Origin: Phlyctochytrium arcticum
Lineage: Eukaryota; Chytridiomycota; Chytridiomycetes; Chytridiales; Chytridiaceae
Assembly (NCBI GenBank): GCA_025602905.1
Contig: JAHLKI010000002.1
Coordinates: forward strand, 1,426,001-1,490,000
Direction: 5' to 3'
Length of the DNA: 64,000 bases
Shown here: piece by piece, positions 1-41,894 of the stretch
Numbering within the stretch: position 1 is the first letter of the stretch
Layout of the letters: each line of letters opens with the position of its first letter
Position numbers and translations under genes: made by a program
The notes under the pieces: generated by a model
Seen by the model: only the letters and a program-made list of their open reading frames with translations
Databases searched by the model: none
Told to the model about the DNA's origin: nothing

Positions 1-1210
1 GGCGTGGTGAAGAAGACAGCGAACAATAGTCGTAACAGATCGGTTGAAGCGCTCGGTTACGCCGTTCAGTTGAGAGGTATTGGTAGGAGTTGGTTTGTGT
101 CGGACAATTAGGTTCTCCAAAGTTTTGTTCCTTAATCCATTAATGTACTCTTTGCCACCATCTGTCTGTAAAATTTTGAAGTTGACGTTTTTGGGAACAG
201 CAACATCCGCAACATAGGATGTCAATGCGCTGTGGGTTTGCTCTTGAGTCTTGTGTGTTAAAGGAGCCAGATAAGCATATCGCGAATGTCGGTCAACGAA
301 AGAAAACAGGCATTTGGATGAAACACAAGGTCTGATTGAACCACTTGTAAAATGCCAGTAGTCTCTTGCTGGGCAATGCCATATGGTTTCTTCGAAAATG
401 TGGCCTGTGCACATACCAAACAGTCTGCGTGTTCAGGAATGCTGTCAGGGTCAATTTTCGGCAAGTTGAGTCCTTGATCTATCATCCGCAGTAGGGCTTT
501 TTTACTGATGTGGCCCAGTCGAGTATGAACTTCGGTAAAGGTTGCAGTTTCAAGAGCCATTGCGCTATCAATGATAGGAGTCGTTGCTGTGGTAGGTAGC
601 GGGTAGGTGCCGGAATTGTCCATAGGGTAAGAAGCAACTTGATAGGAGTCCAGGGTGTATTGAGTTATGTCCGGCAAAATGGATTCTGCATCAAGTAATA
701 TGGCAGCTTGATCAGTAAAGAGCGTAAAAATGCCGGCCTTGGCAAGTTTGGAAACGGAGATTAATCTTGCACCCAGTTCGTTGATTGCAGAGTTGTCGGA
801 AGACTAACAGTATTCTGGGTACCAGGCAATGAAATTGAGGTTGCCATCGAAGCACTTTTGAACGATATGATTATTACTGACACGTATACGTTGACTGGAG
901 GGTTTGAAATTTGTCGAATAGTCTTTAAAAGGTGTTGCGCTAATAGTTGCAGCAGAGTCCAATAACCAAGGTTGTTTAACTTTGCTATGTTGTTTAACTT
1001 CACAACCATATAGTCAGTCACCGTGCGACCTGACTGCGTTCTCCGAATTGCCTTCCTGCCCATCTTGGATTTCTTGAATCGAGATATTGTGAGCTTTTTC
1101 CGGCTCCAAGCAGGGACGTTTCTTGCTGATAAAATTTTGGGCCCGCTCAAGACAGTAGCATTTGTTGGTGGTACAGTATGTCGAGTTCGTCTGCAGATGT
1201 CACACCACAA
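1..1210 (-). pseudogene. copia pol fragment: zinc knuckle/protease, pre-integrase and integrase core
   Basis: CDICRRTRHT near 1210 looks like a decayed zinc knuckle. At 677-330 the pre-integrase HH-CC domain is clear: HTRLGHISKKALLRMIDQGL followed by CLVC. At about 305-1 another frame gives the integrase core: YAYLAPLTHKTQE, then ILQTDGGKEY (second catalytic Asp) and LNGVTERFNR (catalytic Glu). The two blocks are out of register by about one base near 300, so the gene is dead here. The protein would cut and join retroviral-type DNA ends into the genome. The remaining pol lies outside the window. Confidence 0.8.
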
Positions 1211-2079
1211 GGATGAATTGTTGTTTGGCTTAAAGTTGTTAAAGGTTGTGGCAGACTTAAACCCTTTATTGTGCGACGCGTACTGGAGTTGTTCCGGGAG
1301 AGGCTCAAAGTTTGCAGTATAGTGCCCCTGGATGAATCTACTTCGTAGGAGTCGAGGAAGTGCTGTACTTGTTCCAGTGTCTTGAGTTTCCCAAGCTTTA
1401 CTTCATTGAGCATAGGGATCTTGATGTTCGTTCGGAGGCCCTGCAAGAAAAGCGCGATGGTAGTTGTTGTTAGAAGTTGCTCTTTTTGCTTCTGAAGTAG
1501 TTCGTTAAACTTTTGTTTATACTCGGAAATTGTTCATGGTTCCTTGAGATTGACGAGTTGAAAAACGATAGAAGAATCGGTTCCTTTCGCAGCATAGCTG
1601 TTTTTTAAAGTCGTAAAAATTGCCACTGCGGTATCACAATCGGTTCTGCATACAAGGTTGGCTGCTTCACTGTCCAGTTTGGATTTCCTGAGCACACACT
1701 GCGCTACATCGTGGTCGATGGCCATGGGGAGCCAATTCTCAATGTGGTGAAGCCGTACTTGTAGATTGTTACTGATGTTCTCCGCTGTACCCATGGTGGA
1801 CAACGTCGGGATGTTTTTGTAAAGTTGTTCAGCGACTTTTTCAAGACTCATATTGGTAATTTCCGCCGCAATGTTAAGATTGGTCGTGGTGTTGATATGT
1901 GGCATTTTAGCAAAGGTGTTATTAGCATTAACAGAGCTCAGAACCTGTTCGGAATCAGTATATGGTACGATGATTCTTATTGAGGAAGGGTATACATGAG
2001 TTGCCATATATACTGTAGCTGCATCTAGAGTCTCATCAAGAAGTGGATTAAAATTCTTTATTGACAACTCACGGTACAA
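1147..2079 (-). pseudogene. copia gag (UBN2/gag-polypeptide type), frameshifted
   Basis: The open stretch 2079-1534 encodes a helical protein with the WLPMAIDHDVAQCVLRKSK and FTTLKNSYAAKG motifs typical of copia Gag (my reading of the family pattern). A second open piece at 1446-1147 continues Gag in another frame (QVQHFLDSYEVDSS), so at least one frameshift lies between 1534 and 1446. Gag would form the virus-like particle. The LKEP end of the first piece normally leads straight into the second, which supports one broken gene rather than two. Start codon not certain. Confidence 0.65.
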
Positions 2080-2317
2080 TAAAGATTTACATTCCTCTGT
2101 TCCGTAACGCGGATCCTAACGTTTTCCAACAGTCATCCAAAAGGAAAAAAGTTGATGGGCTGCACAAGGAATGTGGTTTACAAAGAAGTGTTGAATGTGA
2201 TTCAATGATTGTACACTTCCTATTTCAAATCTCTTGTATTTTTTAATAGTCATGCATTAAGTTCCATCTTTGAGATACACATTTTCTTTATGTCCCATTT
2301 GCCAATGAAAATACCCC
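2080..2317. other. Non-coding spacer between copia A and MULE M1
   Basis: About 240 bp, AT-rich, no supportable gene. By position it should hold the copia leader and 5' LTR (minus strand), but no terminal repeat partner is present in the window, so LTR borders are not called. Confidence 0.4.
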
Positions 2318-2943
2318 CTACATGCTTGGCGAGCTACATAGTACCCGAGCAAAGCGAGGGTTTACCCTCTCGTAAAACTTAATGCCATTAGGTGAAGACG
2401 AGTCCCAAGTCGTGGCATATTGACCGCGCGTCCCCCACAGCCGGTTCTCCTTCTTCAACGCCCCCCTTGTCATCCTCAAACACGACACTCCCTCTTGCTT
2501 CGGTGCTTGCTCAAGTCCATGCGCAAATTCTAACACAATGCTACAAATTTCAGACATATCTTTTTCAAATGTCTGATGGCAGTCGTCGCCATCACCGTCA
2601 TCACCCTCCTCTCGCCCTTGCTCCAATTCCGACTCCTCGTTGTCATCTTCTTTGTCCGCGTGGTCTTCTTCATCCAGGGCACAGCCCCCTGTGTCTGACA
2701 CCTCTCCCACGTCACCTGGAGCACCCTCGTTGTTGTCGCTGTCTTCCTCATTATGGATGACACGTAATAAAGGGTGTGGTAAGGATGCAGGAGGGAGGGC
2801 GCGCCCCCGGCGCGCCCTCCCTGTGTATTTCAAAACTGCGCCCCCATGTCCAGCAAGCTGGACATGTGGGCGGACTCAACGCGTTTCACGCGTTGAGTAG
2901 ATCGTTTCCATCCAGCTTCTTACTTGACACACTCGACACAACA

Positions 2944-4125
2944 ATGATAACAGCATTCTTTAACGCTGTCCCTCGGGGCCCACCCAATCCTTCCAATCGC
3001 AGGGACTTGTCCCAACTCAACTCCCGCGATTTTTATGAATTGACAAACAGCGCCCCTAAGTGTTTGAAGCTCTGCCAAGATTACGGTCTTATCCCCACAG
3101 CCCGTAGTTGCCCGAAATGTGGTGGTAAAATGAAGATTCACACTGAAAATACCGCGGCGGATGGCAAGCGCTGGCGGTGTGCGACTCCCCAAACCCACCG
3201 CGACGGTGGAAAAGAATGCAGAGCGTCCCTCAACATCAGAAGCGGTACTTTTTTTGAGGGAATGAAACTATCCATTCAACAAGCACTCTCCCAAATCTGG
3301 AGCTGGGCCTGCCGTCACCCACGTCAAGAAGGACTAGACAACGCTCGTGCCGTCGGGGCCCATACTGGGGTAGATTGGTACGGATACTGTAGAGAAATTG
3401 CCATGGCGGCTTTGCAAAATGACCCCGATCTGGACCGAGCCGTAGAGGGAAGAAAGATTGGCGGCCCGGGGATCATTGTAGAGGTGGACGAGTCAAAGTA
3501 TGGAAAAAGAAAAAACAGCAGAGGGCGTAGGGTAGAAGGCCAATGGGTTGTTGGAGGGATCGAGAGGGACAACATTTCCAACATGTTTTTGGTTCCTGTT
3601 AAGAAGCGTGACGCCGAAACACTTATCTTTTGCATTTGGCAGAACATCGCGCCTGGGTCCATCATACTGAGTGACTGTTGGAAGGGGTATGTTACAAAAT
3701 GGCTTGAAGATCTCGGGTACGAGCACCGTACCGTTAACCACTCCAAGCATTTTGTTGATCCCGTGACGGGCCACCATACCCAAAACATTGAGTGCAACTG
3801 TTGCCAATCCAAGGGTATTATGCCCCGGCGGGGCACCAGTAAGACTCTATTTCAAGGGTATCTTTGGGAGTTTATGTGGAGGCGAAAGTACTTGCCTAGA
3901 GAGCGTCAAGTCGGGGGTCCCGCGTTTGCTAAAATTATTGAGCACATCGCCAACTTTCATGGAAGCCCCATTACCTACGAAGCCATTGGAGGGCGCCTAT
4001 CCGACCTGTCTGAACCCCTCTTGGATCAATTGGATGCCAATCTCGCCCCCGGATACAATTCTTCTGATGGTGAGGATTCAGCGGACGAAGCTTATGACGG
4101 AACTTGGGGGGTTGGGGATGCCTAG
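2944..4125 (+). CDS. Merlin/ISXO2-like DDE transposase
   Basis: Uninterrupted 393-residue protein. The ATG at 2944 (MITAFFNAVPRG) is preferred because sequence upstream of it is GC-rich terminal repeat. The N-terminus has a CPKCGGKM zinc ribbon with a later Cys (KECRASLNIRSGTFF), a recognition domain of the IS1595/Merlin type. The catalytic DDE domain follows: IIVEVDESKYGKRK (Asp1), a strand region ending APGSIILSDCWKGY (Asp2), then NHSKHFVDPVTGHHTQNIE (Glu). The bacterial ISXO2 and eukaryotic Merlin transposases share this layout. It should cut the element out through its terminal repeats and give 8-bp duplications, as seen around this copy. The frame is intact, so this copy may be young or active. 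No intron is seen. Confidence 0.9.
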   Translation: MITAFFNAVPRGPPNPSNRRDLSQLNSRDFYELTNSAPKCLKLCQDYGLIPTARSCPKCGGKMKIHTENTAADGKRWRCATPQTHRDGGKECRASLNIRSGTFFEGMKLSIQQALSQIWSWACRHPRQEGLDNARAVGAHTGVDWYGYCREIAMAALQNDPDLDRAVEGRKIGGPGIIVEVDESKYGKRKNSRGRRVEGQWVVGGIERDNISNMFLVPVKKRDAETLIFCIWQNIAPGSIILSDCWKGYVTKWLEDLGYEHRTVNHSKHFVDPVTGHHTQNIECNCCQSKGIMPRRGTSKTLFQGYLWEFMWRRKYLPRERQVGGPAFAKIIEHIANFHGSPITYEAIGGRLSDLSEPLLDQLDANLAPGYNSSDGEDSADEAYDGTWGVGDA

Positions 4126-4389: not shown

Positions 4390-5035
4390 CCAAGGGTGTT
4401 GCCGATAGGGGGCTGTGCGCCGGCGCTTGACCTCCCAAAAGAAAACGGCTGGCACTCGGTGCACTCTTTGGACAAGATGCTTGCAAATGTGAAATCTGTT
4501 AATGACCAAAGATGGGCAAGTACACTTCCATTCTTTTGCATCCGGACTATACTTATTGTTGACAGGCTGCGGGACTGCCGCAGTCTCAAGATTCTGCCAC
4601 ATGTTTTTGAATGCTTTTTTCCATGCCGGAGGTTGTTGATATCCTGCTTGCGACCCAACAACCTTTCCAACCTACGGATATACGTAGGGCCCAGCTTGGT
4701 GACCAGGATCCAGACAAGTATAGCGCATCGGGGAATGTGGAATTGATGAACGAAACCCCGCTTGAGCCGACTCCAACTGTAGCGGTAGGTGATTTCATCG
4801 TGCTGCTGTTATATACATCAAAACTCGCTGTGATTCAACCATCATTGTTGTCCTTATCACCGGCATCTCTTCATGCACGCAGCGAGCCCACAACTCCCAT
4901 CTTCTGATACGGTACCTGTTCTCCCACAGGAATGCCCGGACCTCAGCGAGGTCAGTCTCTTCGCAGTACCTGTACATTTGCGCAACAGTCCACTTTTGTA
5001 TCCTTGGAGCTGTTGGGGCAGAGTAACCTGGGTTC

Positions 5036-8000
5036 CTCAGCGCAACCCGACTTTTACTATAGGGAGGCACAGTCATTGTGGCATTAAGTAAGCAGATCTG
5101 ACCTCGCCGTTTTACTGTACGTTATTGCAAAACATTTGTTCACCATCTGTCCATTTCCACGCGATCTGTTCAACTATACACCTCCAGTAAACTTTCAAAC
5201 CTCACCTCAGCCGGTATTAGAAGGAGGCTGTGTGACGTTATCTGAACCTCTCTCACAGGATCTTTAGAATTGCGACGCGCAAGTGACAGGATGCCGCCCA
5301 AAAGAAAGGTGAGATGGGCATCTTCATGATCTCGACAACAAGCCTTTATCCGGCTGTAAGAGTCAGTTCACTCATTCTTTTACTTCTTCTTATTACAACC
5401 ATTATAGCGCCAGGTCCCAGACGGACTTAGCTGGTACGATCAGGTACCCGGTAAGAGGGGTAACAAATATGGCTATAACCCTGGATGCATCGGCTGCGGG
5501 ACCAAGAGCTCAACCCGATTTCACAAATTCATTTGGGCTGAACTTGACAGCCTTCGGGCAGCACGTTTGAGGCCCCAGGTTGGACCAGGAGCTGCTGATC
5601 CGTATGCTTGCAATGCGTGTCGAACCCGCTGGTACAAAGCAGGGATCATTCGACAGCCCGCCGTCAGGCCCATCATCCCTGCTCAACACAATGAGGTTGC
5701 GGCCATTCAGGAAGCCAGCATCAGTACCGACAATGTGGTGGATGCAGCAGTGAACGCTCAAGTCAGTGACGACAACGTTGTCGATGCGGTTGCGAATGGC
5801 AGTGTCATCTTGATGACGGACTTCGAGCTTCCGGAACCTGAAGGCGATGATGTTGATATTTCTGAAACATCAGGACCATCTCCTGCGACTCTTGCTGATT
5901 TTCACCAAGAAATGCGCAACTTCATTGCTCATCCATTCGGAGGAAATCCGTTCGTCGAGATGGATGAATTTGTCGCTCAGTATCCCCGCCTATATGAGCT
6001 CAAGTCACTCATGGTCGGACATGACGAAAGCCGGTATTCTGTTCTCTACAACGATCGAATGAAGCGGCACTTGATCTTTGCCATATGCTATGAGGGACAG
6101 TGTATGGACCGGAAGACTGATTACGTCAAACGATATATCGGATCTGTCTTCATCACGGGATCCCACACAGATCAACGGCTTCTTTCACGGGTGAATCTGG
6201 GCTATCATCCATCAAAATCGATTACGCGGATGAATAACATGATCATGACGGCCCACGAGCGCGTTGTGAAAGATATTTTGGAGAATGACCCACTCTTGGT
6301 CGTCACCATTGATGACTTCCATTGGTGTCAAGTCCGCCCTGTACCAGATGCCGCAAACGCACCCGGAAAGTTTACGAGTGCGAGGACCACCGCCAACTAT
6401 GCGGTAAAGCTTCACAGGGAACTGCCACCTCTTCCTCCTGCAATCACCGATGTTCTAGCTTCTGTGTTGCAGGACACAACATGGATTCCCTCAGTCCTGT
6501 GTGCTCCCGCAACGCAGACGTATGCGGAACTACGTAACGGTGAAGTTTTGTCCAAAAAAATGTACGCCTACAGTATGGCTACCAAGGCCGGATCGCAAGA
6601 TGATTTCCACATTATCGGCAGCGACAACAACCCTATGAAGTCCGCTCTCGATTTGGAACCAGTGATGGACAATATCGAGACATTCTTGGCGAAAGTCAAC
6701 TATCCTGACAAAGACGGTTCATTTAGTAAGTCTGTGGTTTTGGCCGGCGACTACTATGTTTGGATGTACGCTAGCAAATTGCTGCGATCAGCCAAGTATA
6801 GTAATCTCAGGCCTCACGTCCTACCGGTCCCGGACAATATGCATATAGCCCTGAACATACAGGAGGCAGTCCTTGTCCATGGTTGGACAATCATACACCG
6901 GCTGTGGGTTGCCGGGTAGCCGGACGTGGAAAACACAGCTCCCATCAACATGCGGCCAAAGCGCAGGACGGCAATGTTGGCCCTCTCTATGACCGCTTGG
7001 CAAGAGTGCCGTAAGGAAGTCTTGCGTTCCTACAAGGCGGCGGCATCCAGCAATATAAAGGCAACACCTGTCCGCAAGGCGATGGTGGATTCAATCATCT
7101 CGCTTTTCGAAGATCACATTCCTCTTGCGGTGGATTGTCCGTATTTACTGTCTAGTGGGGATCTCGAACAGATCAAGATGTGCCTCAAGCGGTTGTTCCC
7201 GTTGTTCACTCTTTTGGGAAAGTAAAACTACGTGAACATTGTCCTCTACCAGCTTGGTCCCTTAGAAAAGCTTCCCTCCCACCTACCAAAAGATGTTGCA
7301 ATGGCTTTCCTTTTCTCCACTTTCTCAAGGGAGGATTTGGAAGTATTTCACTCCATCCTCCGGGCCGCCATCCGCTTTCAAGATACTAATGCGCAGGTCT
7401 CAAGAAAGGCAATGTTGATAACCGCCATGAGGGGTGAGTCTGCCATCAAGCAGCTTGCGGCAATGACAGAAAGGGAGTTGGCGCTACGTGGACAACCAGT
7501 TTCGCCAATCAAAGTCGAGCCAGGTACCTCTGGTCCGGCGCATACTCCCGCCCTATCCCCGCTAGAAAAGGCAGCCAATGATGTCGTCCCGAGGATGGTT
7601 GCGTATCTCAAGGACCTGTTCTCCACCCTTTCTCAGTTCACTTTTGACGTCGTTGGACAACATGATAAGATTCCATATGCGTCTGCTCTGCCGCATTACA
7701 ACCTGATTCTCCGCCCTCCAGCTCCTGCCCCACCCGTCACCAACCCTGTACTCTCTTCCGGGTCAGCTACAACCAACAAAGTGCACTACGGTAAACCTCC
7801 CTCCAGCCAGCGCAGAAGAGATCCCCGTGGTAGTCTTAGCTATCATCCGGGAGTCACTTCTGCCTTTGCCGCTGCGCCGTCAACCCTTCGTAAATCTCGG
7901 CAACCACATCGATGTTGAAGGGTTTCAAAGTGTTCCAATGCCGGTCGCGAAGACCCCTCTTGCTGACATTACGAATGGGCCATCTCCCAGTAAGGCCAAA

Positions 8001-8593
8001 AAAGTCACAGTGCGAGATTTCTTAAAATCAGACTTGCTGAAGCAAGATCTGACCGCTTGCGGTTGCGTGATCTTCAACTGCCAATGTACAGCAATGTACC
8101 AGTGGATTGCAACCAAGTCCCTGAAGCATTTTTCAAACAACATTGACAAGGAACTTGTGCGTGATGATGAAGGTAATTAAGCCAGAGGTACCGCTCAGTG
8201 TCTCGCGAGTTGCGTCCATTTCCCGGCTATGAGCGATTAACAACCTTCTTTCAAACACTATTTAGAATCATCAGTTTCAACATCAACTCAGTAGCTCGTG
8301 TATCTCACCATGCTTACGCATTTCACGTACCCCATCAAATTCTTAGATGCGCTTAGACTGTTGGTTTTTCGGGTCAAACTCTATCCTTTATATAGTCTGA
8401 GGTAGCGGCCACGTTTTCCCTAGCTTCTTAGATATGTTTCCTTCATTCTCGTTTACTCGGTTTCGTTATTGTATATAAAGTTTGGGTGAAATTGGGTCAC
8501 TTTCAGGTATCCCTTCATTCTTGCAGAAATGGTTCGGGCTGTCGGACATTGCTTATGTAAATTTTTGGCGCCAAAATCTTGGGTTGCGCTGAG
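5036..8593 (+). mobile_element. T1: TIR transposon of family T (3558 bp, 8-bp TSD)
   Basis: Both ends carry the same 13 bp, CTCAGCGCAACCC, inverted: 5036-5048 and 8581-8593. Flanking 8-bp direct repeats CTGGGTTC lie at 5028-5035 and 8594-8601. The element sits in MULE M1 and its removal joins PMNP to GYSAPTAP in the MULE frame. The left 110 bp of subterminal sequence matches the corresponding ends of T2 and T3. One two-exon gene runs left to right, with about 330-400 bp of non-coding DNA before and after it. Confidence 0.92.
5291..8180 (+). pseudogene. T1 transposase-like gene (family T), inactivated
   Basis: Exon 1 is ATG CCG CCC AAA AGA AAG (5291-5308), a basic MPPKRK start that could act as a nuclear signal. 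A 99-bp intron (5309-5407, GT-AG) follows. Exon 2 starts RQVPDGLSWYDQVPGK and has GCIGCGTKSSTRFHKF and YACNACRTRWYKAG (Cys-pair motifs), then TIDDFHWCQVR, IIGSDNNPMKS, LAGDYYVWMY and VPDNMHIALNIQEAVL. The C-terminus has ACGCVIFNCQC and ends near 8180. Breaks: TAG at 6917-6919, TAA at 7223-7225, and a frameshift between about 7800 and 7830. The element structure is intact but this gene cannot make a full protein. Function as a transposase is inferred from its position as the only gene between TIRs. Confidence 0.85.
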
Positions 8594-9819
8594 CTGGGTT
8601 CATTGGATGGGCACAAAAAGGTTGCTTCATCATCTCTATGATCATGTTCCTGAGGTCGGGTGGACAAAACATTCGGCTATTTCTTTTTTTCGCTTCAACG
8701 GGGCAAGGGTAAGCTCTGCGCATGAAATGGACCATGCTGGCAACCGTATGAATATGGTATACGAGTCCGGTTGCACAACTGATTCTGGCTGTAGCAGATG
8801 ATCACCGGGCAAACCGCCCCCATAATCATCAGCATCTGTCTTCGATCCTGTAGGTTAAAATTTTGATTGATAAATGGAAATCGGCGTGGGCACAGTGCAA
8901 GTTTGGCTTTTGCCAGCCGTGTACGCACAGCTCGTTTGATTCTGCCATTATGGTATAAAGGACCAGGTGCTTTGAGTTTGTGTTGTCTGAAACGTTTGGG
9001 ATATGAGTGTTACAGTGCGGTACACTCTAAGTCAGAATGTACCACGCGTGGGATAGGTATTTGATGATCAAGTTGGTAACTTACATGTCGCGTGCATTGC
9101 AATTTCTGGTGTTTGCCCTTTAAGCCTCTCAGCCACTTCCTTCATTCCCCACGCCAACATCTCGACTCCCTCAGGCACTTCATCGATTTTAAGAATACCA
9201 GCTGCATCACTGTACTCTGGGAGCAAGGTTCCGGCGGATACAATCTGGAGGTTGTGTGGGTCTGGCTTGCCTCGCACCATGCCGTATGGATCTGCGTAGC
9301 TGTTACCGTGGGGAAGGCACCTTGAACCTTTGCCACCATGGCGGTAGGTTTCAACCAATCCCCATGCTCCTTGGGGCATTGATACATCGACGTAATGAGG
9401 ATGACTTTGCAGATGACAGAGCTTGATGAACATCTGCGCACTATTCTCAATATGTCGATAGCTGATTGCCAGATGGCTTTGACAAGGAAATCCCTTCATG
9501 CCGACGTGCTCGCGATGCTTCACCCCTGGCTTTTGGGATGGTTTGGCCTTTTTCTTGCTTGCTTTGTCTTCAGTACAGAAGTCCTGGGTAAGAGCATCTC
9601 CAACATGGTTCTTAAATATTTTCTAAATTTGACCAGTTCTAAATTTAAAACACGCAAATATGGATGTGCTCTCCAACGTGGCACACAAAATGCAGTCATT
9701 TAACCCTTTTGTTAAATTATAATCCTGCTGGCCTCAAAAGAATCTAGATCTTGCAAAACAAGATTGGTTTTATCCCCAAAGTACAAAACCACAAAACGAC
9801 TTTGATCCGACAATACTGT

Positions 9820-10656: not shown

Positions 10657-12856
10657 CTATCTAATCCAGTTTTCTTCTTCTCCATTATTATCATCTTCCG
10701 AATCCTGCTCTCCGTTCCAGGCCCATAGGTGCTCGAGCAGGTCTGAACGCAGCTGGTAGTGGCTGTCTTTGTTTCACACAGCCGTGAATCTATCCGAGAG
10801 TTCTTGCAATCCGCATGGACCACGATTCAACCGAGCTGTATCCTCTTCGGTAAAGGAAAAGCCGTCTTCGTCATTAAAAAGGTCCTCTCGCCTGTCCTGG
10901 ATGTTCATATTTTGCATAATGATGCAAGCTAGCATGATCACCAGTAAGTCGTCATGCTTCCAAAAGCGGGCGGGATTGGTAAGGATTTTCCAACGAGCTT
11001 TCAGTACCCCAAATGCTCGCTCTATGTCTTTTCTTGCCGACTCTTGCAGCTTTGCAAACAGTTTCTTCTTACGTCCTTGCGGGAGAGACATTGATTGTAT
11101 CAATGTTGACAACTTGGGGTAAATACCTGAACAATTGGAAAGGAGTCAATCTGGCTACACTTTGTTCAGGTTCCTACTCTTTTACATACCACGAGGATAT
11201 GCCAGGTATGGGGCTAAGCCCAATACAGAGACGAATGTACTGTAAACCAAACACAGAAGAAGTCTGCAAAAAAATGGCAGAGCTTCCATATATAGAATGC
11301 CCCTGGTCATTCTCACCACCAATTCCATTGAGCGCTCCTCTAAAACCATGGCTGTGTGCAAACCCCCCTTCCATCTTGGGTTGGCTTTGGAAATCAAGGC
11401 TGTGTGCAATACCCGCCCAGTCAATGCCATTCCACCATTGATACTCATTCCCTCCATCACTCACAAACTGCCATGCCAAGATGCCATCTATTTTCCCACG
11501 CTCAGGCCATGTCAAGATGTAATCTGGCTTTCGGACTCGGCCTACATCCTCAAGAATTTGCCCAGAGATTTCAACTCAAGGCCCTCTATCACTTACCAAC
11601 TGCCATGCCAAGATGCAATGTGATTTCCCACGCTCATGTGTAGCAAATTTGGCTTTGGGACTCGGCCTATGGCCTCAAGGATTTGCCCAAAGAATTTGGA
11701 GTCCGTGTTAGGATTCAGGATTCACAGCCACATCCAATGCTGCGCTATTCGGCCATAGGCCGCAGAACCACATTTGTTTAGGATAGATTGCGGACTGAAA
11801 CCTATATAAGGCATCTCATGTATACCCTTTCCCTTTAATGACTACTGTACCTAGTACCGATTCTCAACAGTCTGAACAGGTCACGTGGGGCACGTGTTTT
11901 CGGACAACTGCTACTATACTATATAGATCTGCCAGGTAGTAGCCCATCTTGTAGATGTTCCCATTTAGCTCGTACTCAATGCCCGGTGCAACACCATTCA
12001 ACACATCTGTAAAGAGGTGAGAACGATCAAGAACGTTTATGTCATTGTGAGACCCAGGCATTCCGAAAAAGGCGTGCCAGAACCAAAGATCCTGCGAAAC
12101 AGCTGCCTCCAACATCAGAGTTGGAACGCCTTCCTTCCCCGTGTACGAACCTGCCCGGCCAGTAGGGCAATTCTTCCATTGCCAATGCATGGAATCTAAG
12201 CTTCCTAGCATTCCCACAAACCCACGCTCTGAGTGCATTTTTCGCAAGCGCTTGGTATCCTCTTCTGTTGGGGCTCGCAGATATTCGTCTTCGTAAATGT
12301 CCACGATTGCGCGCACAAATTTCCTTAAATACAATATGGCAGTACTTTCACCAATACGCACGTACTCATCAACGCGGTCAGCAGGCTCACCGTATGCCAA
12401 TTGCCGCAGAGCTGCAGTGATCTTCTGGATGGGGGTGAGACCAAGCTTGCCAAAACCATCGCACAATAGCCTAAAGGTGGGATCATGGGCCGTGACATCC
12501 TGTACAATTTTGAGAAATCTCGCCTTTCGCATGCGGAAACGCCGGCGGAAATCCTCCTTGGTGTAAGTTGGGAGTTCTCCAAGATATCCAAAATAGTCGC
12601 GCATTGTGTTGGCATGGCCCTGGGAGGTATGCCTTTCTTTGTACTTGCGACCGTCAACCGATCCTCAATGGGACGGTGCGGGTGGGCTCGAGAATATGAT
12701 CGACTGTGCTTGCTGAATCACAACCTCTTCAGCATTGTCTTCCTTGAAGAAGCGTTTGAGAATAGGAATACGAGATTGATCTTCTTGCAGAAAGTTTTCG
12801 GGCAAGCTGGGTGGGGACAGGGGCGGATCGGTTTCGGGTACGTTGTTGTCAGACAT
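10657..12856 (-). pseudogene. Harbinger B DDE transposase, split by a Helitron and two stops
   Basis: Starts at ATG 12856 (MSDNNVPETD). A TGA at 12665-12667 sits where related proteins have Arg (SH-stop-GSVDGRKYKERH), a CGA-to-TGA change. Then MRDYFGYLGELP, an FRRRFRMRKARF helix-turn-helix region, GFVGMLGSLDSMHWQWKNCP (Asp1) and FGMPGSHNDINVLDRS (Asp2). After YYLAD the 736-bp Helitron interrupts. A 63-bp intron (11189-11127) follows, then GIYPKLSTLIQ and the Glu region ERAFGVLKARW. A second TGA at 10774-10776 (again CGA-type) precedes the tail HYQLRSDLLEHLW that ends at 10657. Endonuclease of the ISL2EB/PIF class; inactive here. Confidence 0.85.
11192..11927 (-). mobile_element. Non-autonomous Helitron (736 bp)
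   Basis: On the minus strand it starts TCTATATAGTA (11927) after an A and ends TATCCTCG (11192) before a T, with a GGGCTTAGCCC hairpin about 15 bases before the end. No target duplication, as usual for Helitrons. Both ends match the 8984-bp Helitron at 35613-44596: the left 50 bases with GTCCGAAAA, and the right 60 bases with TTCGTCTCTGTATTGGGC. It has no gene; inside is an imperfect direct duplication of about 125 bp (about 11451-11570 and 11583-11700, each with CAACTGCCATGCCAAGATGC). Confidence 0.85.
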
Positions 12857-21447: not shown

Positions 21448-21705
21448 TCAACTTTCCCGGCCACTTGCGTGACACAGGTCGCGCTTCACAATAGTGGCGA
21501 GTCCCTCCTTAGTGAAGGACAGACGGGGGTAATCATCGACCTTGTCGATTTGGAGGGATTCAAGGTCCAGGATGATGGGGAGTCCCAAGATGACATCAAC
21601 TCGGAGCGGTGCCACAATGAACGGAGCTTCCTGGAAGCCGATCTTTTGGCCCGCGTTCGTGTAGATCTCCAGGTCACCCTTCATCATACGCGTGGACATG
21701 AATAA
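21448..21705 (-). pseudogene. Gypsy protease remnant
   Basis: The minus strand shows MKGDLEIYTNAGQKIGFQ and VDVILGLPIILDLE, the second half of a retropepsin-like domain; the catalytic DSG half is missing. At about 21700 the sequence changes to the 3' end of T2. Together with the short gag, this shows that part of gag and protease was lost when, or after, T2 came in. Confidence 0.55.
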
Positions 21706-24700
21706 ATGGTGAGAACACGGCAGCCAAAAGAGCAATCAGACTGAGGTTGAAAAAAATGACTCTGGTAATGTTAAAGAACAAAGATAAGGTCGTCCGTTCA
21801 TTGAAATAAAGGACATTGCTCGCGAAACGACGGTTGCTTTTACTTACCTTCAAGATCGCGCACCGGATTTTTGTCAATGTTGGCCGAGAAGTGAGTAAGG
21901 GACTTGTTGGCAATCCATTGGTACATTGCTTTACATTGGCAATTGGCGACGATGCAACCACAGGGAGCAAGATCTTCTTTCAAGGAGTCTACTTTCAGGA
22001 AGTCTCGGACTTTTTTGGCCTTGCTGGGGGATTTTCCGTTCCCATTTGTACTGTCGGCAAGAGGGATTTTCGAAAGTGGCATCGGAACACTTTGGCAGTT
22101 TTGAATATCGATGTGGTTCCCTAGGTTAATGAACGGTTGCCGCCGCAGTGGCAATGGCACAAGTGATTCCCGAATGGTCGCTACGACCACCCCGGGAGTC
22201 TCCTTCTCGCTGGATGGGGCAACAACACCGGGGTTCTCCTTGTTGCTGGATGATGAAGGTGACGATGGGAATGACGAAAGGGGCGTGGGTTGTAATGGTG
22301 AGAGCGGCTTGATGACAAGGCTATAATGCGGCAGCGCGGATGCATAAGGCATCTTTGCCGTTTGCCCAATAATATCAAATGAAAATGAGAAGAGAGTAGA
22401 GAAAAGGTCCCGAAGATAAGCAACCATCCTCGGTACAACATCTTCCGCTGCCTTTTCTAGAGGGGATTGGGCCGTACGAGAGGTAGCCGCCTCGTCGTCA
22501 ATCGGAGAGACTGGTCGACCACGTAGCTCTAACTCCCGTTCCGTCATAGCAGCAAGCTGCCTTAAGGCAGACTCACCCCTCATGGCAGTAATCAACAGGG
22601 CTTTCCTGGATACTTGCTCATTGGTATCTTGAAAGCGAATTGCAGCCCGGAGGACAGAGTGAAAGACTTCTAAATCTTCACTTGAGAAGGTGGAAAAGAG
22701 CAAAGCCATAGCAACATCTTTTGGAAGATGAGAAGGAAGTTTTTCTAAGAGACCGAGCTGGAAAAGAATGATATTAACATACTGTAGTTTTTCTTCCCCA
22801 GAAGAGCAAACAATGGAAACAGCCGGTTGAGGCACATCTTGATTTGGTCAATGTCCCCACTTGATAGCAAATATGGGCAGTCGACCGAAAGAGGAATGAG
22901 TTCTTCAAACACCGATATAATCGAGTCTAACATTGCCTTTCGTACCGGTGTTGCTTGGGAGTTACCGGCTGCACGCAAGTTATAGCTTTTTAGGATTTCT
23001 TGGCGACACTCCTGCCAAGCGGTCATGGCCGTCCGTCGCTTGGGTCGCATGTTGATCGGCGAGGTGTTTTCCACCTCCGGATATCCAGCGACCCAGAGGG
23101 GATGAATGATAGTCCAAGCATGGACTAGGACCGCCTCTTGTGAGTTAAGGGCTACCTGCATGAGATCCGGGACCGGCAAGATGTGAGACTGGAGAGCGCT
23201 ATACCTGGGCGATTTTAGCAATTTGGTAGCATACATCCAGACGTAGAAATCGCCGGCCAGGATGACGGACTTGTTGAAGGAGCCAGTGCTGTCAGGATAA
23301 CCCACTTTTGACAAGAATGTCTGGAGGTTGTCCATGACCGGCTGCAGATCCAGGGCGCACTTCATGGGGTTATCGTCACTGCCAATAATATGAAGATCCT
23401 TTTGAGATCCGGCCTTGGTTGCCATACTATACGCGTAAAGTTTCTTGGACAAAATTTCTCCTTTACGGACTTCAGCGTATGTCTGTGTTGCGGGAGCGTC
23501 AATGACCAAAGGAATCCACGAAGCGTCCTGCAGCACAGATGCTGTAATGTCGCCGATCGCAGGCGGGAGAGGTGGCAATGTCCTATGTAACTTTACCGCA
23601 TAATTCGCGGTGGTCCTCGCGCTCGTAAACTTTCCGGGTGCGTTTGAGGTGTCTGGCACAGCCCGAATCTGGCACCAGTGAAAATCATCAATGGTGACAA
23701 CCAAGAGTGGGTCATTTTCCATAATGTCTTGAATGACATTTTCTTGCGCTGTCACAATAATGTCATTGATGCGGGTGATCGACTTGGACGGATGGTAGCA
23801 CAGATTCATCCTCGACAGAAATCTCTGATCCGTGTGTGTTGCGGTAATAAACTGATAGCCAACATATCTTTTGATGTAGTCGCACTTTCGATCCAAGGCC
23901 TGCCCGTCGTAACAAATGGAAAAGATGATAGATCTTTTTTTGCGATCTTGGTACAATACGGAATGTTGTTCAGAAGTACCGACGATGAGAGCCTTGAGCT
24001 CATAAGCACGTGGATACTGAGCTATGAACCCATCCAAGTCAATGAAAGGGTTTCCTTCAAAAGGGCGAGCGACCAGATCCCGCAGAGCCTGTTGATACTC
24101 GATAATCGTGGCAGGACTGAGATCTGGTACCTGCAATGTAGTGGCGACAACAGCATCTACATCCTCGGGCTCGTCAAAGTCGGTCAATATAACAATATGG
24201 CCATCACCATCTTCATTGACATGCTCAGCATTGTCCTGTTCTGGATTCGGGACTATAGTGGGTTCCAAATAGCCGGCCTTGTACCATCGGCTGCGGCAAG
24301 CATCGCAAGCATATGGGGAATGGAATCCAAAGCCGAACTGGAAGCTCAGGCCGGTCATCTGTAGTCTATCCAGCTCTGACCAATGAAATTTGTGAAATCG
24401 ACCAGAGTTTTTGGTCCCACAGCTGATGCAACCAGGTTTGTAATAGTATTTTCCAAGCTTTTTTCCCGGGACCTGAGTGAACCAGTCAAGACCGCCTTCG
24501 ACCTGACGCTATAATGATGACAACAAATGAAAGTCAACAAAGAAGGAGAGCCGATTACTATATTGAAATAAAGGTTTGTTTGCAAGATCATGAAGATGCC
24601 CAAATCACCTTCCGCTTCGGATGCATACTGTGGATTGTGCGTCTGAATTCTAGGCTGCTGTGAGTAGAGTCCTAGATAAAGTCACAGTATACGCTTCCCA

Positions 24701-24882
24701 TACCGTTTGAGCTTCGTTTCGAGGTTTTAGTGAGTGTGTCTAGTCGTAAAGTTTGCAGGGAAATGGACAGATGGTGGACGAATGTTTTTGAAAAACGTAT
24801 GGTGGAGCACGCATGTCGGATCGGATTACCTAATAGTATGATGACTGTGCCGTTTGCTAATTAAGGGCCGGGGTGCGCTGAG
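21706..24882 (-). mobile_element. T2: family T transposon, 3' end lost
   Basis: The 5' end (minus strand, 24882) is CTCAGCGCACCCC, the family TIR with one base lost. The next about 110 bases, with CGTTTTTC and CATCTGTCCATTTCC, match T1 and T3. The 3' TIR expected about 400 bp after the gene is absent; similarity to T1 fades near 21705 where gypsy protease begins. Hence a truncated copy inside the gypsy element; no TSD can be shown. Confidence 0.8.
21840..24626 (-). pseudogene. T2 transposase-like gene (family T), one frameshift
   Basis: Exon 1 ATG CAT CCG AAG CGG AAG (24626-24609, MHPKRK), intron 24608-24509 (100 bp), exon 2 from 24508 (RQVEGGLDWFTQVPGK). Conserved motifs in order: GCISCGTKNSGRFHKF, YACDACRSRWYKAGY, TIDDFHWCQIR, IIGSDDNPMKC, LAGDFYVWMY, VPDLMQVALNSQEAVLVHAW, MRPKRRTAM, and a C-terminal PCGCIVANCQC. 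A frameshift of about 1 nt lies near 22780 (LLGKKNY then YVNIILFQLG). The final frame stops at 21840, directly at a GTAAGT that looks like a splice donor. Protein similarity to T1 and T3 is clear but far from identity, so the copies belong to different subfamilies. Confidence 0.85.
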
Positions 24883-34560: not shown

Positions 34561-36058
34561 TGGTTACTACCGCATGTGGACCGAGATCCCTTGATCTGCA
34601 ATGTCCGATACCCACGTCTCCTAGGCCCAGCCCTCACAGGACACAGCGGCCACTCTCAGAATGTGGAGTGACGCGACCGGATAGGAGTGGAGCGCGCGGA
34701 CGCTGAGCTGCAGAATGCCCCCAGGCCAGCCAGAGCTACAGTACCCGCACCCGCAAGCCAACAACCAAAACCCGACTTGACCACATGGAGAACACCCTCA
34801 CCAGTTTCCTGTCAAGCTTAGCGAGTGGCTCGGAGCTCCAAAATGCCGCTGCCAATGCTTTGACACCCTCCTCTTCCTCCTCCACTACTACTACTACTCC
34901 CGCATCCAACTCCTCCTCTACCACCACCCCCACCCCCAATGCACCCTCGTCCGTCATTGCCACTGGCAGACAGCCACCCCGCTGTAGCCGCTGTGGTGGT
35001 CCCCGCAAAGGGCATACTATAAGAAAGGAACCGCGTGTCCCATCCCCACCCCGGCTCCTCCAACATCTATCCCATCATCCTCTCCCACATCCACCCCATC
35101 GACCTCTCCAACATCCAGCCCATCATCCTCTCTAACATCCACCCCAACATCCTCTCCTACCCATTCCTCCTCCACCCAGTCCATCTCTCCCCTCCCTCCG
35201 CGACTCAATATCCTTGAATACCTTTCTCCTATCCGCAGGCTACCCCTCTCTCCCATACGCATTCACTCCACATCCCCTGCACCCGGCCAAGACAATGATT
35301 GGTATGAGTATTCTAACGATTTGCAGCCCGTGATGATGGGCTCGAGGATTTCCTGGAATATCCATTTGGCCGGGATTGGCACGATGCCTTTCCGGGGTCA
35401 ATATTGGATGAATCACTACCAGTCATGTTCGAGGGCAAGGTTGGAGTCATGTGCCGCCGAGTTTTTGGTGATACTTACGGAACGGAGGATATATAAATGT
35501 TCAGACAAGAAGGCCGGGGCTTTGAAGTGTTCCGCCGAAGGCATTATTTGGGTGATGTTCAGGATGGCGGTTGGTTGCTTCGGAGGGGTTCCGAGTATTA
35601 TTTCAATTGGTACCAGGATATGCCAGGTATGGGGCTAAGCCCAATACAGAGACGAATGTAAACCAAACACAGATATCCTCTTTCTCAGAAGATATATGTT
35701 TGGATGGAAGTCTGCCAAAAAATGGCAAAGCTACCATATACAGAATTCCCATTGGCACATGTGTCATATTTCATCCTTAAAAATTGGGGGGTGGCATTGA
35801 TTTTTTTTGGGTAAGAAGAACTCTTGCCCTCCCGCAGTTCATACTGAGTTTGATCTCAGCTCAACGCCCCAGGGCTGACCTGGGAAATCCCGAAGCAAAC
35901 CCAATTGAATCCTATGGGTTTTGGTTTCTCTGCAGCCACAATCTCAAAGATGTAAGTAAGCTGCACAACAATTCTGCTCAAAGTTTGAAAAACTCCTACA
36001 GACGGGCATTCCCGTGCCAAGAAAGAGAAACCAAGGTGAAACCCGTCTTCAAAAATTA

Positions 36059-36195: not shown

Positions 36196-38421
36196 ACATT
36201 CGGCCACTACTGAAGCACCTCATTGTAGACGATATTGCGCATGCGACCCTCCGGACCTTCTAGATTCAAAATCTTCAGAAAGCAGGATGCAGTTGTTCGT
36301 GAAACCCCCACATAGAATTGGCCGTGTGAGAAGACAGAAACCGGCAAGTACAATCCAACATGGGTCATGGTCTGACCTTGACTTTTGTTGATTGTCATTG
36401 CATATGCAACCTTGACCGGAAACTGTCAACGCTTGAGGATGAATGGGAAGTTACCCTCGTTTGTGGTCATTGTAATCCGAGGAAGGAATACCGAAGTCCC
36501 AATGTTCGCCCCCGTCAGGATAGTAGCCTCAATGACCCTCTGACCGAACCGCTTGACAATAGGACGGGTTCCATTGTACTATCCAATAGAAGGATTCAAA
36601 TTTCGCAGAAGAATGATGGGAACACCTTCCTTCAACAGCAATTTGTGGTTTGGCAAGCCACTACTCTTGCAGTGTTCAAGTACTCGACAGGAAAACGTGC
36701 TGATGGTAGAGCAGCCCCTTCTTGCTCTGCAACACCGGTGTCAACAGAATCGGCACTCAGATACTCATGTAACTCTCCTGGAAGAGACCCAAGCAACATG
36801 TCGTTGACCTGATCGACATCATCATATTTAGAGGTAAGAATGGTTCGTTCTTTCAGATAGTGTGCGTCACCGACATGGTCTTGGTAACTTGGGTAAACAT
36901 GATCGATGAGCCCCTTGAGATCCCGTTTATCTGCGGGCAAGCAAAGTTCGTCCGGGGTCTCCACCCATTCGCGCTCACCCCCCTCCTTTGCTGCAGTCTT
37001 TGGAAGTGTGTTGTTGCCAAGATCCAGAACCCAATTTGCAAAATTGACAGCCTCAACGGTATTTTCCCTCAACACCCTCATGTTGATGTGCAACTGCAGA
37101 ATTGTCGCATATCGCCAGAGTTCAGATCTTGGGAGGGAGGCGGCTACAATATCTTCTCGTCTTCCCTTGGTGATCACCGGCAGAATTTGTCGAAAGTCAC
37201 CACCCAATGCGACTGTCTTTCCCCCAAATGGCCTGCTGCAGTCCATGATGTCCTGTAGCATACGATCAACGCACTCAAATGCATGCCGATGTTGCATCGG
37301 TGCTTCATCCCAAATGATGAGGTCTGCTCTCCTCATCAGCTCAGCTTCGGGACTCTGTTTCTTGATTCTTGAGGTCGACCCATCAGTGCGCTTGATTGGT
37401 ATCCCGAACCTTGAGTGCGCGGTTTGACCGCCGGGTAGCAGTAGAGCAGCAATCCCAGATGATGCAACTGCGAGTACAATCTTGCCTTGCCCACGTAGAC
37501 GCGCCAGAAGTGTTGTCCAAACGAATGTTTTTCCGGTACCTCCGGGGCCATCCAGAAAGAACAGCTTGCCCTCTTGTGAATGTACTGAGGTGAGGATAGT
37601 GTTATATGCCCGCAGTTGGTCAGCGTTGAGCCTGGCCATATTGGTGTCTGCCTCTTCTGTAAGGGCAGTTTGATCATAGTTGAGCTGCTCTCGGATGTAG
37701 CGGTTTCCAACTGCAACAGTGGGGACAAATGTTGTTGCAGGCAAAGCGAAAGAGGCAAGGTTTTTGCCACGCACAATCAAAAGTTGTTCAATCTCGTACA
37801 ATGCACGATTCCAAAGACCTTCTTCAGAGAGAACCAAACTTGGATTGCTTGTTTCCTGGCGGGTGACATGTTCCAGATCATCGCTTAACACTTGCCAATG
37901 TGAGTTCCAGAGACCCTTGGGGTTGGTAACGTTACAGAAGAGCAGTTAATAGCAGAACTGGTCACGTAGTTTTTTCCCTGTCTGCCAAACCCCGGCCTCA
38001 TCCAGAACATTGTGCCACTCATTGTCGTCCTCCAGTAAACCTTGCGCGACGCAGGCCTGCTTGAAAGTGGCATGCTGCTCTCCCTGCACCATGCGGAGAT
38101 CCTCAAAAGAAGTGGCCCCCTTGACCGTATGCAATAACATCCGCAAGTAGTACCGTTCTCCGGTGGAAGGAGGTGCATAGTAAAGTCGCCCAATAGCAAA
38201 TCCCCGCTGCCAAAGTTTCCACCTCCGTTGCTTGGGTTTCCAGACGAACTTGGTGGGAAATTGACTGTAAGTGACTGTCGTTGCCACTGCTGCAGTCTCC
38301 ACTTCTTGGTTGGCCAATCCTTTACAGGCCTGTCCAAAATTGTTCGAATGTCCTCGCCAGCAGGAAAGATTTCTGGTTGGTCACCGGGAACGTATACTGG
38401 CAACCTTTCGACGGAAGGCTC

Positions 38422-41400
38422 CTCAGCGCAACCCGAGATTTTCCCACCAAAAATTTACGTAAGCAATGTCTGACGGTCCAAACGATTTCCGCGACAACTG
38501 ATGGGTGCTATACTGATGTAAATTCTAATGTAAAAGAGTGCTAAGAAGTGAATGAAATGATCGATTATATGATAAAATATAAGTGGGAGGATGTTCACCG
38601 CGCCAAACTGTGTAATAGGTGCAAACTACGCCCTAAAAACCGACAGCATGAGATTGTCATGGGGTATGGAAATGGACCCCAAACGTCAAACGCAGAACGC
38701 ATCGATGTGAGGCTGAGATATCTCAATCTAGACAATGTTTGTAAGAAAGTGAGTAATTGTTCATGGTGTAGCGGCGCAACCAGCGCCTGAGGGGCAGGCG
38801 AGTACCCTGTCTTTACGCACCTTCAACATCACGCGCTGGAACCTTGTCAATGTTCTTCCAAAAGTTGGTCAGCGATTGCTTGGCAATCCACTGAAACATG
38901 CTGGGGCACTTGCAATCATCTGTTACGCATCCGCAGCCTGCACGATCTCCTGTCAACGAATTCGTGTTTAAGAAATCCCGCGTCTTCTGGGCTTTGGCTG
39001 ATGGCTTCGCTGGCCCATTGGTGATGTTGCCAAGAGGGGATTTAGACGATGGCTTCGGCACAGATTGATAATCGACAATATTGACGTGCTTTCCAAGATT
39101 AACATACGTCTGACGCTTCAGAGGGATTGCGAACAAGCTTTCTCGAAGGGTAACTATGATCTTGTCGGGATTTTCCTTGTTTGCATTTCTTGCTGGACTG
39201 GACCCTGGTGTTGGTAACGATGAAGAGGAGGGAGGGGATTGAACTGGAGGACTTGATGGGGATGGAAGAGGAGAATTTGGGCTGGGTGGAGGGGGAGGCC
39301 TTACCACAAGGTTGTAGTGGGGCACATTGGACCAATACGACAACTTTCCAGTTTGTCCTTTTACGTCAAACGAGAAGGATAGAAGGGTAGAAAAAAGATC
39401 TTTCAGATGAGAAACCATTCTGGGAACAACATCGTCCATCGCCTTCTCCAAGGGAAGCGGTGCACTGGACTTCTCATCATCATCTTCTTCATCATTGTCA
39501 TGATCATCCGTCGGGATCGGAAGTCCGCGAAGCTGGAATTCGCGTTCAGTCATCTCTGCCAGCTGCTGGAGGGCAGATTCCCCCCTCATGGCTGTGATAA
39601 GGAACGCTTTCCGGGTCACTTGATCGTTGGTATCATAAAAGCGGATAGCAGCGCGAAGGATGGAATGAAAGACCTCTAGGTCTTCGCTGGAGAACGTGGA
39701 GAATAGGACAGAGACGAGGACATGCTGTGGGAGGTGGGCCGGCAATTTCTCCAAGAGGGCGAGCTGGAATAGGATAATGTTCACGTAATTCTTCTTCTCC
39801 AGACGGGTGAACAATGGGAAGAGGCGCTGCAGACACATCTTGATCTTACCAAGATCACCGCTGGCTAACAAGTATGGGCAGTCCACGGAAAGAGGAATAG
39901 CCTCCTCAAAAACCCACAAGATGGCATCGATCATAGCCTTGCGGACGGGTGTAGCGTCAGGATGATTGGCCGCCAACTTGTAGGTTTTTAGAAGTTCCTC
40001 TCGACATTCTTGCCATGCGGTCATGGCAAGGGCCAGCATAGCTGTTCTGCGTTTAGGTCGCATCTTGATTGGCGTGGTGTTCTCAATCTCGGGGTACCCA
40101 GCAATGCAGAGGGGATGAATCAGCGTCCAAGCATGTATGAGGATGGCCTCTTGAGAGTTGAGTGATACATGCATCAAGTCGGGTACTGCCAGTACATGTG
40201 GTTGTAAAGCCTGGTACTTTGGGGATCTGAGCAGCTTGTTGACGTACATCCATACGTAAAAATCCCCGGCCAGCACAAAGGACTGTTTGTGTGCAAGATC
40301 CTCGCCAGGATAGCCTACTTTGGACAGAAAAGCCTCTATGTTGTCCATGACGGGCTTAAGGTCATCAGCTGACTTCATGGGATTATTATCGCTCCCGATA
40401 ATATGGAAGTCTTCCTGAGATGCCGCCTTCGTTGCCATGCTATAAGCATACATTTTCTTGGAGAGAACTTCGCCATTGCGCAACTTGGCATAGCTTTTGC
40501 TTCCGGGGCCTTCGATGACCTGGGGGATCCACGACACGTCCTGCAGGAGAGAGGCATTCAAACTTCCAATACCAGGGGGAAGTGGTTTGAGGTCTCGATG
40601 AAGCTTCACTGCATAGTTGGCAGTTGTTCTTGCGCTCGTAAACTTGCCTGGCGCATTAGCTGTGCTTGGTATGGCGCGAATCTGACGCCAGTGAAAATCG
40701 TCAATCGTGACTACAAGAAGGGGGTTTGTTTGGAGAATGTCCTTCACCACGGCTTCTTGCGACTCCAGGATTAGATCGTTTGAACGGGCAACCGACTTTG
40801 ACGGATTGTAGCAGATCCCTACTCTCGAAAAGTATCGCTGCAGGGTATATGACTGACCGATCATCTGCCGTCCAACGATTCGTTTGATATAGTCGCACCT
40901 CCTATCCATGGTATGGGCTTCATAGCAGATGGAAAACATAATTTTTCTCTTCATGCGGTCCCTGTAGACCACGGATTGAAGTGGTGTGTCCTTGAAGCCA
41001 ATCGAGGTGGCCTTGAGCTCGTACAGACGTGGGTATGCCGCAATGAATCCATCGACATTGACAAAGGGATTCCCGTCGAAAGGACGTTTGATAAAGTCCA
41101 ACATGGCTTTATTCAAGTCATTGACCGTTGCGGGATCCTCTTCATCCGGTTTCGAAGGAGTGATAATGGTGATGGCATCCAAGTTCTCCGGCTCATCATG
41201 ATCAACCATTATGACTACGGCTTCATCCTCATCTGCATTTGCTTCCGGCGATTCATCTGGGACACTTTCCACAGGTCGGAAGAATCCGTATTTATACCAT
41301 CGAGATCGACACCCTTCGCGAGCATACGGGGCAGCGGCCCTACGCGCAAGCTGAGGCTTCACACCATTCATCGCCAGCTTACCAAGCTCGTCATATCCAA

Positions 41401-41894
41401 ACTTGTAAAATCGTGAGGAGTTCTTGGTCCCACAACCAAAACAGCCGGGTATAAAGTACCACTTGCCGTTCTTTCTTCCAGGCACTTCATAGAACCAAAC
41501 GCGTGAGCCTACAGCCTGAGGATTTCCGAGGTTCAAGAAAAAAGGCAAATGACGAAGGAATTACGATCAGTAGACTGTAGCGGCGCTTGATGTTCAAGTT
41601 GATCAAGATGCCCATCTCACCTTCCTCTTCGGCGGCATGCTGTCACTTGCGCGTCGGAATACTAAAGATCCTGTCAGAAAAGGTTCGGATAAAGTCACAG
41701 AGTCTCCTTCCCATACCGGTTGAGGTGAGTTTCGAGACTTTACTGTAGGTGTGTAGTGCAAAAGATCGCGTGGAAATGGACAGATGGTGAACGAATGTTT
41801 TGCAAAAATGTACAGTAAAACGGCCAGGTCGGATCAGCTTACTTAATGTTACAATGACTGCGCCTCCCTATTGTAAAACTCGGGTTGCGCTGAG
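38422..41894 (-). mobile_element. T3: intact family T transposon (3473 bp, 8-bp TSD)
   Basis: The 13-bp TIR CTCAGCGCAACCC stands at 38422-38434 and inverted at 41882-41894. The 8-bp duplication GAAGGCTC flanks it (38414-38421, 41895-41902). The host Helitron frame reads MQDREPS-VERLPVYVPG when T3 and one duplication are removed. The subterminal 110 bp at the 5' end match T1 and T2, and the 3' end GAGATTTTCCCACC resembles T1. Its single gene is open. Confidence 0.95.
38813..41638 (-). CDS. T3 putative transposase, family T (906 aa, open)
   Basis: Exon 1 ATGCCGCCGAAGAGGAAG (41638-41621), intron 41620-41516 (105 bp, GT-AG), exon 2 41515-38813 with no break. Order: MPPKRK; CFGCGTKNSSRFYKF at about 25-40; a second Cys/aromatic motif CRSRWYKYGF near 75; DRMKRKIMFSICYEA; TIDDFHWRQIR near 250; KFTSARTTANYAVKLHRDL; MYAYSMATKA; IIGSDNNPMKS; LAGDFYVWMY; VPDLMHVSLNSQEAILIHAW; MRPKRRTAMLALAMTAWQE; a Pro/Ser-rich linker; and a C-terminal GCGCVTDDCKCPSMFQWI. 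The Asp of IDD, the Asp of GDF and the Glu 38 residues further on are my candidate DDE triad. The only gene of a TIR element with 8-bp TSD, hence probably its transposase; activity not shown. An alternative 3' exon is possible because GAAG-GTGCGT resembles a donor. Confidence 0.85.

Follow-up and report, generated by a model that had tools for sequence, protein, structure and literature searches.

Element T of the chytrid Phlyctochytrium arcticum: a multicopy, probably autonomous DNA transposon whose lineage has no Pfam match over cut-off

The stretch of 64,000 nucleotides analysed here (G000:C2:1426001-1490000 in the 31.5-Mb genome assembly of Phlyctochytrium arcticum; hereafter the window) contains three copies of an element, T, and raises the question of whether T is a transposon moved by its own protein and, if so, where that protein belongs among the known transposases. 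The reading we favour, at a probability of about 0.82, is that T is an autonomous DDE (Asp-Asp-Glu) cut-and-paste transposon and that, together with two families found elsewhere in the genome, U and V, it forms one lineage of the (C/D)xxH group of transposases (P, hAT, MuDR, Kolobok, Dada) without a match to the Pfam models of such families.

Ends, target site duplications and empty sites of T

The copies T1 (5036 to 8593, forward strand, 3558 bp) and T3 (38422 to 41894, reverse strand, 3473 bp) were found to have both ends and to share the 13-bp inverted end CTCAGCGCAACCC / GGGTTGCGCTGAG. The terminal inverted repeats of T1 are located at 5036-5048 (CTCAGCGCAACCC, forward) and 8581-8593 (reverse), and those of T3 at 38422-38434 (forward) and 41882-41894 (reverse). 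Both copies are flanked by perfect 8-bp target site duplications, CTGGGTTC at 5028-5035 and 8594-8601 for T1 and GAAGGCTC at 38414-38421 and 41895-41902 for T3, which were read directly and also tested by script. Between T1 and nine complete copies at other places, identity was 98.7-98.8%. The remaining copy, T2 (approximately 21702 to 24882, reverse strand), belongs to the subfamily of L012-L014 and matched positions 1-3191 of the complete copy L012 (3449 bp) with 98.9% identity. It is truncated and has kept one end only, with the variant terminal repeat CTCAGCGCACCCC at 24870-24882 (reverse), so that its duplication could not be assessed. The original prediction of three copies sharing their ends thus holds for T1 and T3 and in part for T2, and the two perfect duplications that it reported were both recovered.

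The 13-mer occurred six times in the window with up to two mismatches, compared to 1.18 occurrences expected, and six were not reached in any of 100 shuffles; five of the six are T ends and the sixth, at 35855, is unrelated. Across the genome, the end pattern CTCAGCGCAMCCC was found 60 + 60 times, compared to 1 + 1 for the reversed control. When the genome was searched with the T3 protein, at least 71 matches were obtained, 50 of 280 candidates were scored and 30 loci were returned. Both ends were present at 19 of these 30 loci (T3 itself being L001), giving 20 distinct pairs with the addition of T1, and the 8-bp duplication was perfect in all of them except L018 and L019 (18 of 20). Another 14 pairs were taken from the listed places of the end pattern, with ends facing each other no more than approximately 4 kb apart; 12 of them had perfect duplications and the other two agreed at seven of eight positions. 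Overall, at least 34 distinct end pairs were found, 30 of 34 with a perfect 8-bp duplication, confirming the proposed family with inverted ends and duplications of fixed length. The 30 perfect duplications are 30 different sequences and show a weak, symmetric bias: the third base is T in one of 30, and the sixth is A in one of 30 and C in 16 of 30. Four pairs of full-length copies (L013/L014, L022/L023, L027/L028 and L029/L030) are identical within each pair, and they lie at different places with different duplications.

Two unusual arrangements of T ends were also seen. At G000:C10:622718-622764, opposite-facing ends are 21 bases apart, perhaps in a nested or rearranged copy. At G000:C6:761139-763386 (L080/L081), an end pair spanning 2248 bp with a perfect duplication is probably an internally deleted, non-autonomous derivative.

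Removal of the element had been proposed to restore coding sequence at two copies. This was borne out, as the joined flanks of T1 and of T3 both read through in frame and both have junction-spanning matches elsewhere. The frame that hosts T3 was identified with Pfam as a Helitron, and the joined T3 flanks had full-length matches (400 bases) at three places in the genome, with 97%, 86% and 91% identity (the last with 22 extra bases), and a match of 212 bases spanning the junction at a fourth (91%). For T1, unbroken matches across the junction were found at 13 other places, 78% identical over 400 bases at one of them and 74-78% identical over 268-299 bases at the other 12. The host frame of T1, itself repeated at these 13 places beyond its own two flanks, is probably another mobile element. 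T is thus a multicopy family of recent activity, in which copies are identical and empty sites are clean.

A predicted split RNase H transposase

A short first exon (MPPKRK) and a long second exon, separated by an intron, were read by script in both complete copies, with the splice sites inferred from the sequence. In T1, where the intron is of the form GT...AG, they lie at 5291-5308 and 5408-7918 on the forward strand. The second exon of T1 is interrupted by in-frame stops (TAG at 6917-6919 and TAA at 7223-7225) and the frame is lost past 7918, which marks T1 as a dead copy. In T3, by contrast with T1, the transposase frame is open; its putative exon 1 is located at 41621-41638 and exon 2 at 38813-41515 (900 codons and a stop), both on the reverse strand. 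Residues are numbered here on T3, with residue 1 at codon 41548-41546 and exon 2 as residues 12-911.

Complete proteins that have all four cysteines (full-length T, U and P0011-type proteins) carry an N-terminal CxxC-(37-41)-CxxC motif, and a cysteine cluster is present at the C terminus of the same full-length types. In T3, one finger cysteine is replaced by arginine; the cysteine is kept in five of five near-identical copies. Conservation of single residues was counted over those rows of alignment A3 that bear a letter at the position. Two aspartates are predicted to be catalytic, D283 in TIDDF on strand 1 (40700-40702, reverse; 23 of 23 rows) and D429 in GDFYV at the end of strand 4 (40262-40264, reverse; 25 of 25). 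The neighbouring D284 is conserved in 21 of 22 rows and D556 in 29 of 29. The motif D457-L-M-H460 (40169-40180, reverse), with the aspartate in 23 of 26 rows and the histidine in 25 of 28, follows strand 5 directly. The candidates for the third acid are E622 and E625 in SSEDLEVFHS (E622-D-L-E625 at 39674-39685, reverse), each found in 28 of 28 rows. In eight proteins that were measured, the spacing between the first and second aspartates was 146-191 residues, and the aspartate of DxxH was 163-167 residues from the equivalent of E622.

The predicted structure of T3 (predicted local distance difference test, pLDDT, 77.2) contains a split RNase H core, in which a helical insert follows strand 5; an earlier model of full T3 from a 12-row alignment was poor (pLDDT 48) and was used as a hint only. 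According to the model, E622 and E625 begin the helix past the insert, approximately 195 residues beyond D429, and strands 1 and 4 would each bear one of the three acidic residues and the last helix the third, as in DDE/D transposases. The RNase H core that had been anticipated is present in the model. The glutamate 38 residues after GDFYV, to which attention had been drawn, lies outside the last helix and was rejected as the likely third catalytic residue; E622 or E625 probably takes this role. When the viral structure library was searched, nothing was found at E ≤ 0.001, and the top row was a hAT-like Pandoravirus protein.

Taken with the anatomy of the element, the predicted fold gives good support to cut-and-paste transposition in which a DDE transposase acts at positions staggered by 8 bp. 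T would be an element of approximately 3.5 kb whose single spliced gene codes for a DDE transposase approximately 900 residues long. The N-terminal CxxC...CxxC motif probably forms a zinc finger that binds the ends of T, and the split RNase H domain, with D283, D429, E622 or E625, D457xxH460 and a helical insert of approximately 160 residues, would be the catalytic part. This enzyme would cut at the 13-bp inverted repeats and join the ends to target DNA at positions staggered by 8 bp, and repair of the resulting gaps would leave the 8-bp duplication. By analogy, the T lineage would work in the way that P and hAT do.

The T, U and V lineage and the named superfamilies

The original prediction held that the protein could not be assigned to a named superfamily. 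As far as profiles are concerned this stood, since T3 and 33 members of the lineage had no Pfam match over cut-off and NCBIfam gave nothing for five proteins; what did not stand is the lack of any affinity, as will be seen below. At E up to 10, the 33 members matched 13 Pfam families in all (HMMER filters drop most matches above 0.1). Pfam contains P-type, THAP, hAT, KDZ and MULE models, and none of these was among the 13. When ten other frames of the window were run against the same library as a control, five were over cut-off (IS1595-type and Harbinger-type transposases, a Helitron and two retrotransposons), one was below it and four had no match, indicating that the lack of a match for T does not stem from a general inability of this library to recognise mobile elements. 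Sequence searches of solved structures with T3, A2 and A3 gave nothing useful, the A2 search returning one designed protein (E 0.0073).

The sole Pfam family matched by more than three of the 33 members was DUF6589, with 11 of 33 members and a best E of 5e-5, all weak and below the curated cut-off. The T3 protein scored 14.3 bits compared to a cut-off of 27, and the similarity is partial: residues 561-615 of T3 correspond to profile positions 285-340 of 410, a match of approximately 55 positions within the helical insert, which reached up to approximately 90 positions in the genome search. If the two were collinear, simple arithmetic would place the start of the profile near strand 1 and its end beyond E625. 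The genome search with DUF6589 gave 18 places, all below the curated cut-off (best 23.7 bits compared to 27) and none of them among the matches listed for the T3 protein. Comparison of L031, L033 and L036 and of five larger stretches (L039-L043) resolved two further families.

Family U (L042, 962-4992; L043, 982-5012) has a perfect 21-bp repeat starting CCCAGCGCAC and the duplications CGTGACAA and GTTGCGTG. Family V has the ends CCCAGG...CCTGGG, with the duplication GGGCAACC at copy L039 (389-4390) and AGATGCCG at copy L041 (1112-5095), where 10 bp is possible if one end is shifted into the element; no 8-bp duplication was found at a third copy, L040. Identity to T3 is 25-30% for the proteins of U and V (P0012 and P0015-P0018), and C[T/C]CAGCGCA is common to the ends of T and U. 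P0019, a JGI protein on a contig of 4051 bp, was 37% identical to U across the searched region, which extends the lineage beyond sequences named P. arcticum. In three protein searches, 12 of 12, three of three and nine of 10 hits were labelled P. arcticum. None of 95 pattern matches on viral contigs, nor of 69 on bacterial and archaeal contigs, was confirmed as a relative. The protein search with alignment A2 returned three proteins only and missed the T proteins themselves, so that absence from the protein searches carries little weight.

The presence of (C/D)xxH directly after strand 5 is described for P (PMC8230255), and D457xxH460 occupies the same position in the predicted fold of T3. With the helical insert before the last glutamate, this supports placing T, U and V near the group of P, hAT, MuDR, Kolobok and Dada. 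Among the defining features that were compared, T departs in at least one from each of P, hAT, KDZ and Dada. Of the alternatives, the one that fares best, although we regard it as unlikely, is that T belongs to the P superfamily (Drosophila P, THAP9) as a highly divergent member in which the THAP domain of the animal proteins is replaced by another zinc finger. P and T share 8-bp duplications, the D-D-DxxH-E residues and, in the prediction, an RNase H fold that is split by a helical insert following strand 5, and the best structural match of the model was to the P superfamily; Hermes, however, followed less than 2 Z units behind. Besides the absence of P-type and THAP matches, the repeats are 31 bp in P and 13 bp in T, and the first and second aspartates are 73 residues apart in P (D230 to D303) compared to 146-191 in the T lineage. 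The insert of P binds GTP, and that of T3 is predicted to be helical.

A relationship to Dada is improbable in our view. In Dada proteins, a CCCC finger is described at the N terminus and a CCHC finger at the C terminus, with DxxH following the second aspartate (PMC3706591), and full-length T, U and P0011-type proteins resemble them in the CCCC finger, the C-terminal cysteine cluster and D-D-DxxH-E. In contrast, the same source gives Dada duplications of 6-7 bp inside small RNA genes and an aspartate spacing of 68 for Dada-U6_DR (PMC3706591), whereas T has 8-bp duplications of 30 different sequences, the longer spacing given above, and two copies, T1 and T3, inside reading frames. A scan for tRNA genes found none in the joined flanks of 22 insertion sites. 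The tRNA and Rfam scans of the occupied loci also found no RNA gene; because an insertion splits the gene it enters, such a gene would be missed there, and these scans do not bear on RNA-gene insertion.

A place for T among divergent KDZ (Zisupton/Dileera) or hAT elements is equally improbable. KDZ elements occur in fungi, their proteins have cysteine-rich ends, and 8-bp duplications are found in Zisupton and a Dileera family, whereas the Kyakuja duplication is 7 bp; hAT (Hermes) shares the 8-bp duplication. Neither the KDZ models nor the hAT transposase and dimerisation models were matched, however. The ends of hAT elements start with CA and their duplications have T as the second and A as the seventh base, whereas the termini of element T are CTCAG and its duplications have T as the second base in 6 of 30 and A as the seventh in 6 of 30. 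The target of Kolobok is TTAA, in contrast to the 30 different 8-bp duplications of element T, and for MuDR/MULE the MULE match is missing. Last, it is very improbable that T is a non-autonomous passenger of another element and its protein has some other role, given the predicted DDE transposase fold, the invariant acidic residues and three divergent families that each keep a like protein, inverted ends and 8-bp duplications.

Matching none of the named families tested, T appears to represent a hitherto undescribed branch of DNA transposons in eukaryotes. Within the reach of Pfam and NCBIfam profiles, published descriptions and word-based protein searches, the lineage is best read as ranking as a new superfamily. 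No description of the T, U and V lineage was recognized in the open-licence literature, and no paper on DUF6589 or on transposons of P. arcticum was found there.

Neighbouring features and significance

Several other features were seen in the window. An IS1595/ISXO2-type (Merlin-like) transposase frame is located at 2776-4125 on the forward strand (PF12762, E 5.6e-10) and a Harbinger-type frame at 11864-12604 on the reverse strand (PF04827 Plant_tran, E 3.5e-48). Long frames at 46580-48448 (forward) look transposase-like by eye, the first of them without a Pfam match at E 0.001. At 51406-56693 (forward), three long open frames lie next to each other and show fibre-like repeats by eye; the first of them matches PF06536, a profile of the N terminus of avian adenovirus fibre, below threshold (E 5.7e-4, 20.1 compared to 22.7 bits), and this region is possibly a virus-derived insertion.

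Repbase lists 24 superfamilies of eukaryotic DNA transposons (PMC12730594), and a lineage outside them would be an addition to a short list. As a recently active multicopy lineage that offers both identical copies and clean empty sites, it would be practical to clone and assay. DUF6589 proteins occur in fungi and animals. We tentatively propose, at somewhat less than even odds, that T, U and V are the founding families of a new D-D-DxxH-E superfamily of eukaryotic cut-and-paste transposons with 8-bp duplications and that the DUF6589 proteins are its wider relatives, so far unrecognised as mobile or domesticated transposases. If true, this would provide a testable hypothesis for DUF6589, a Pfam family of unknown function.
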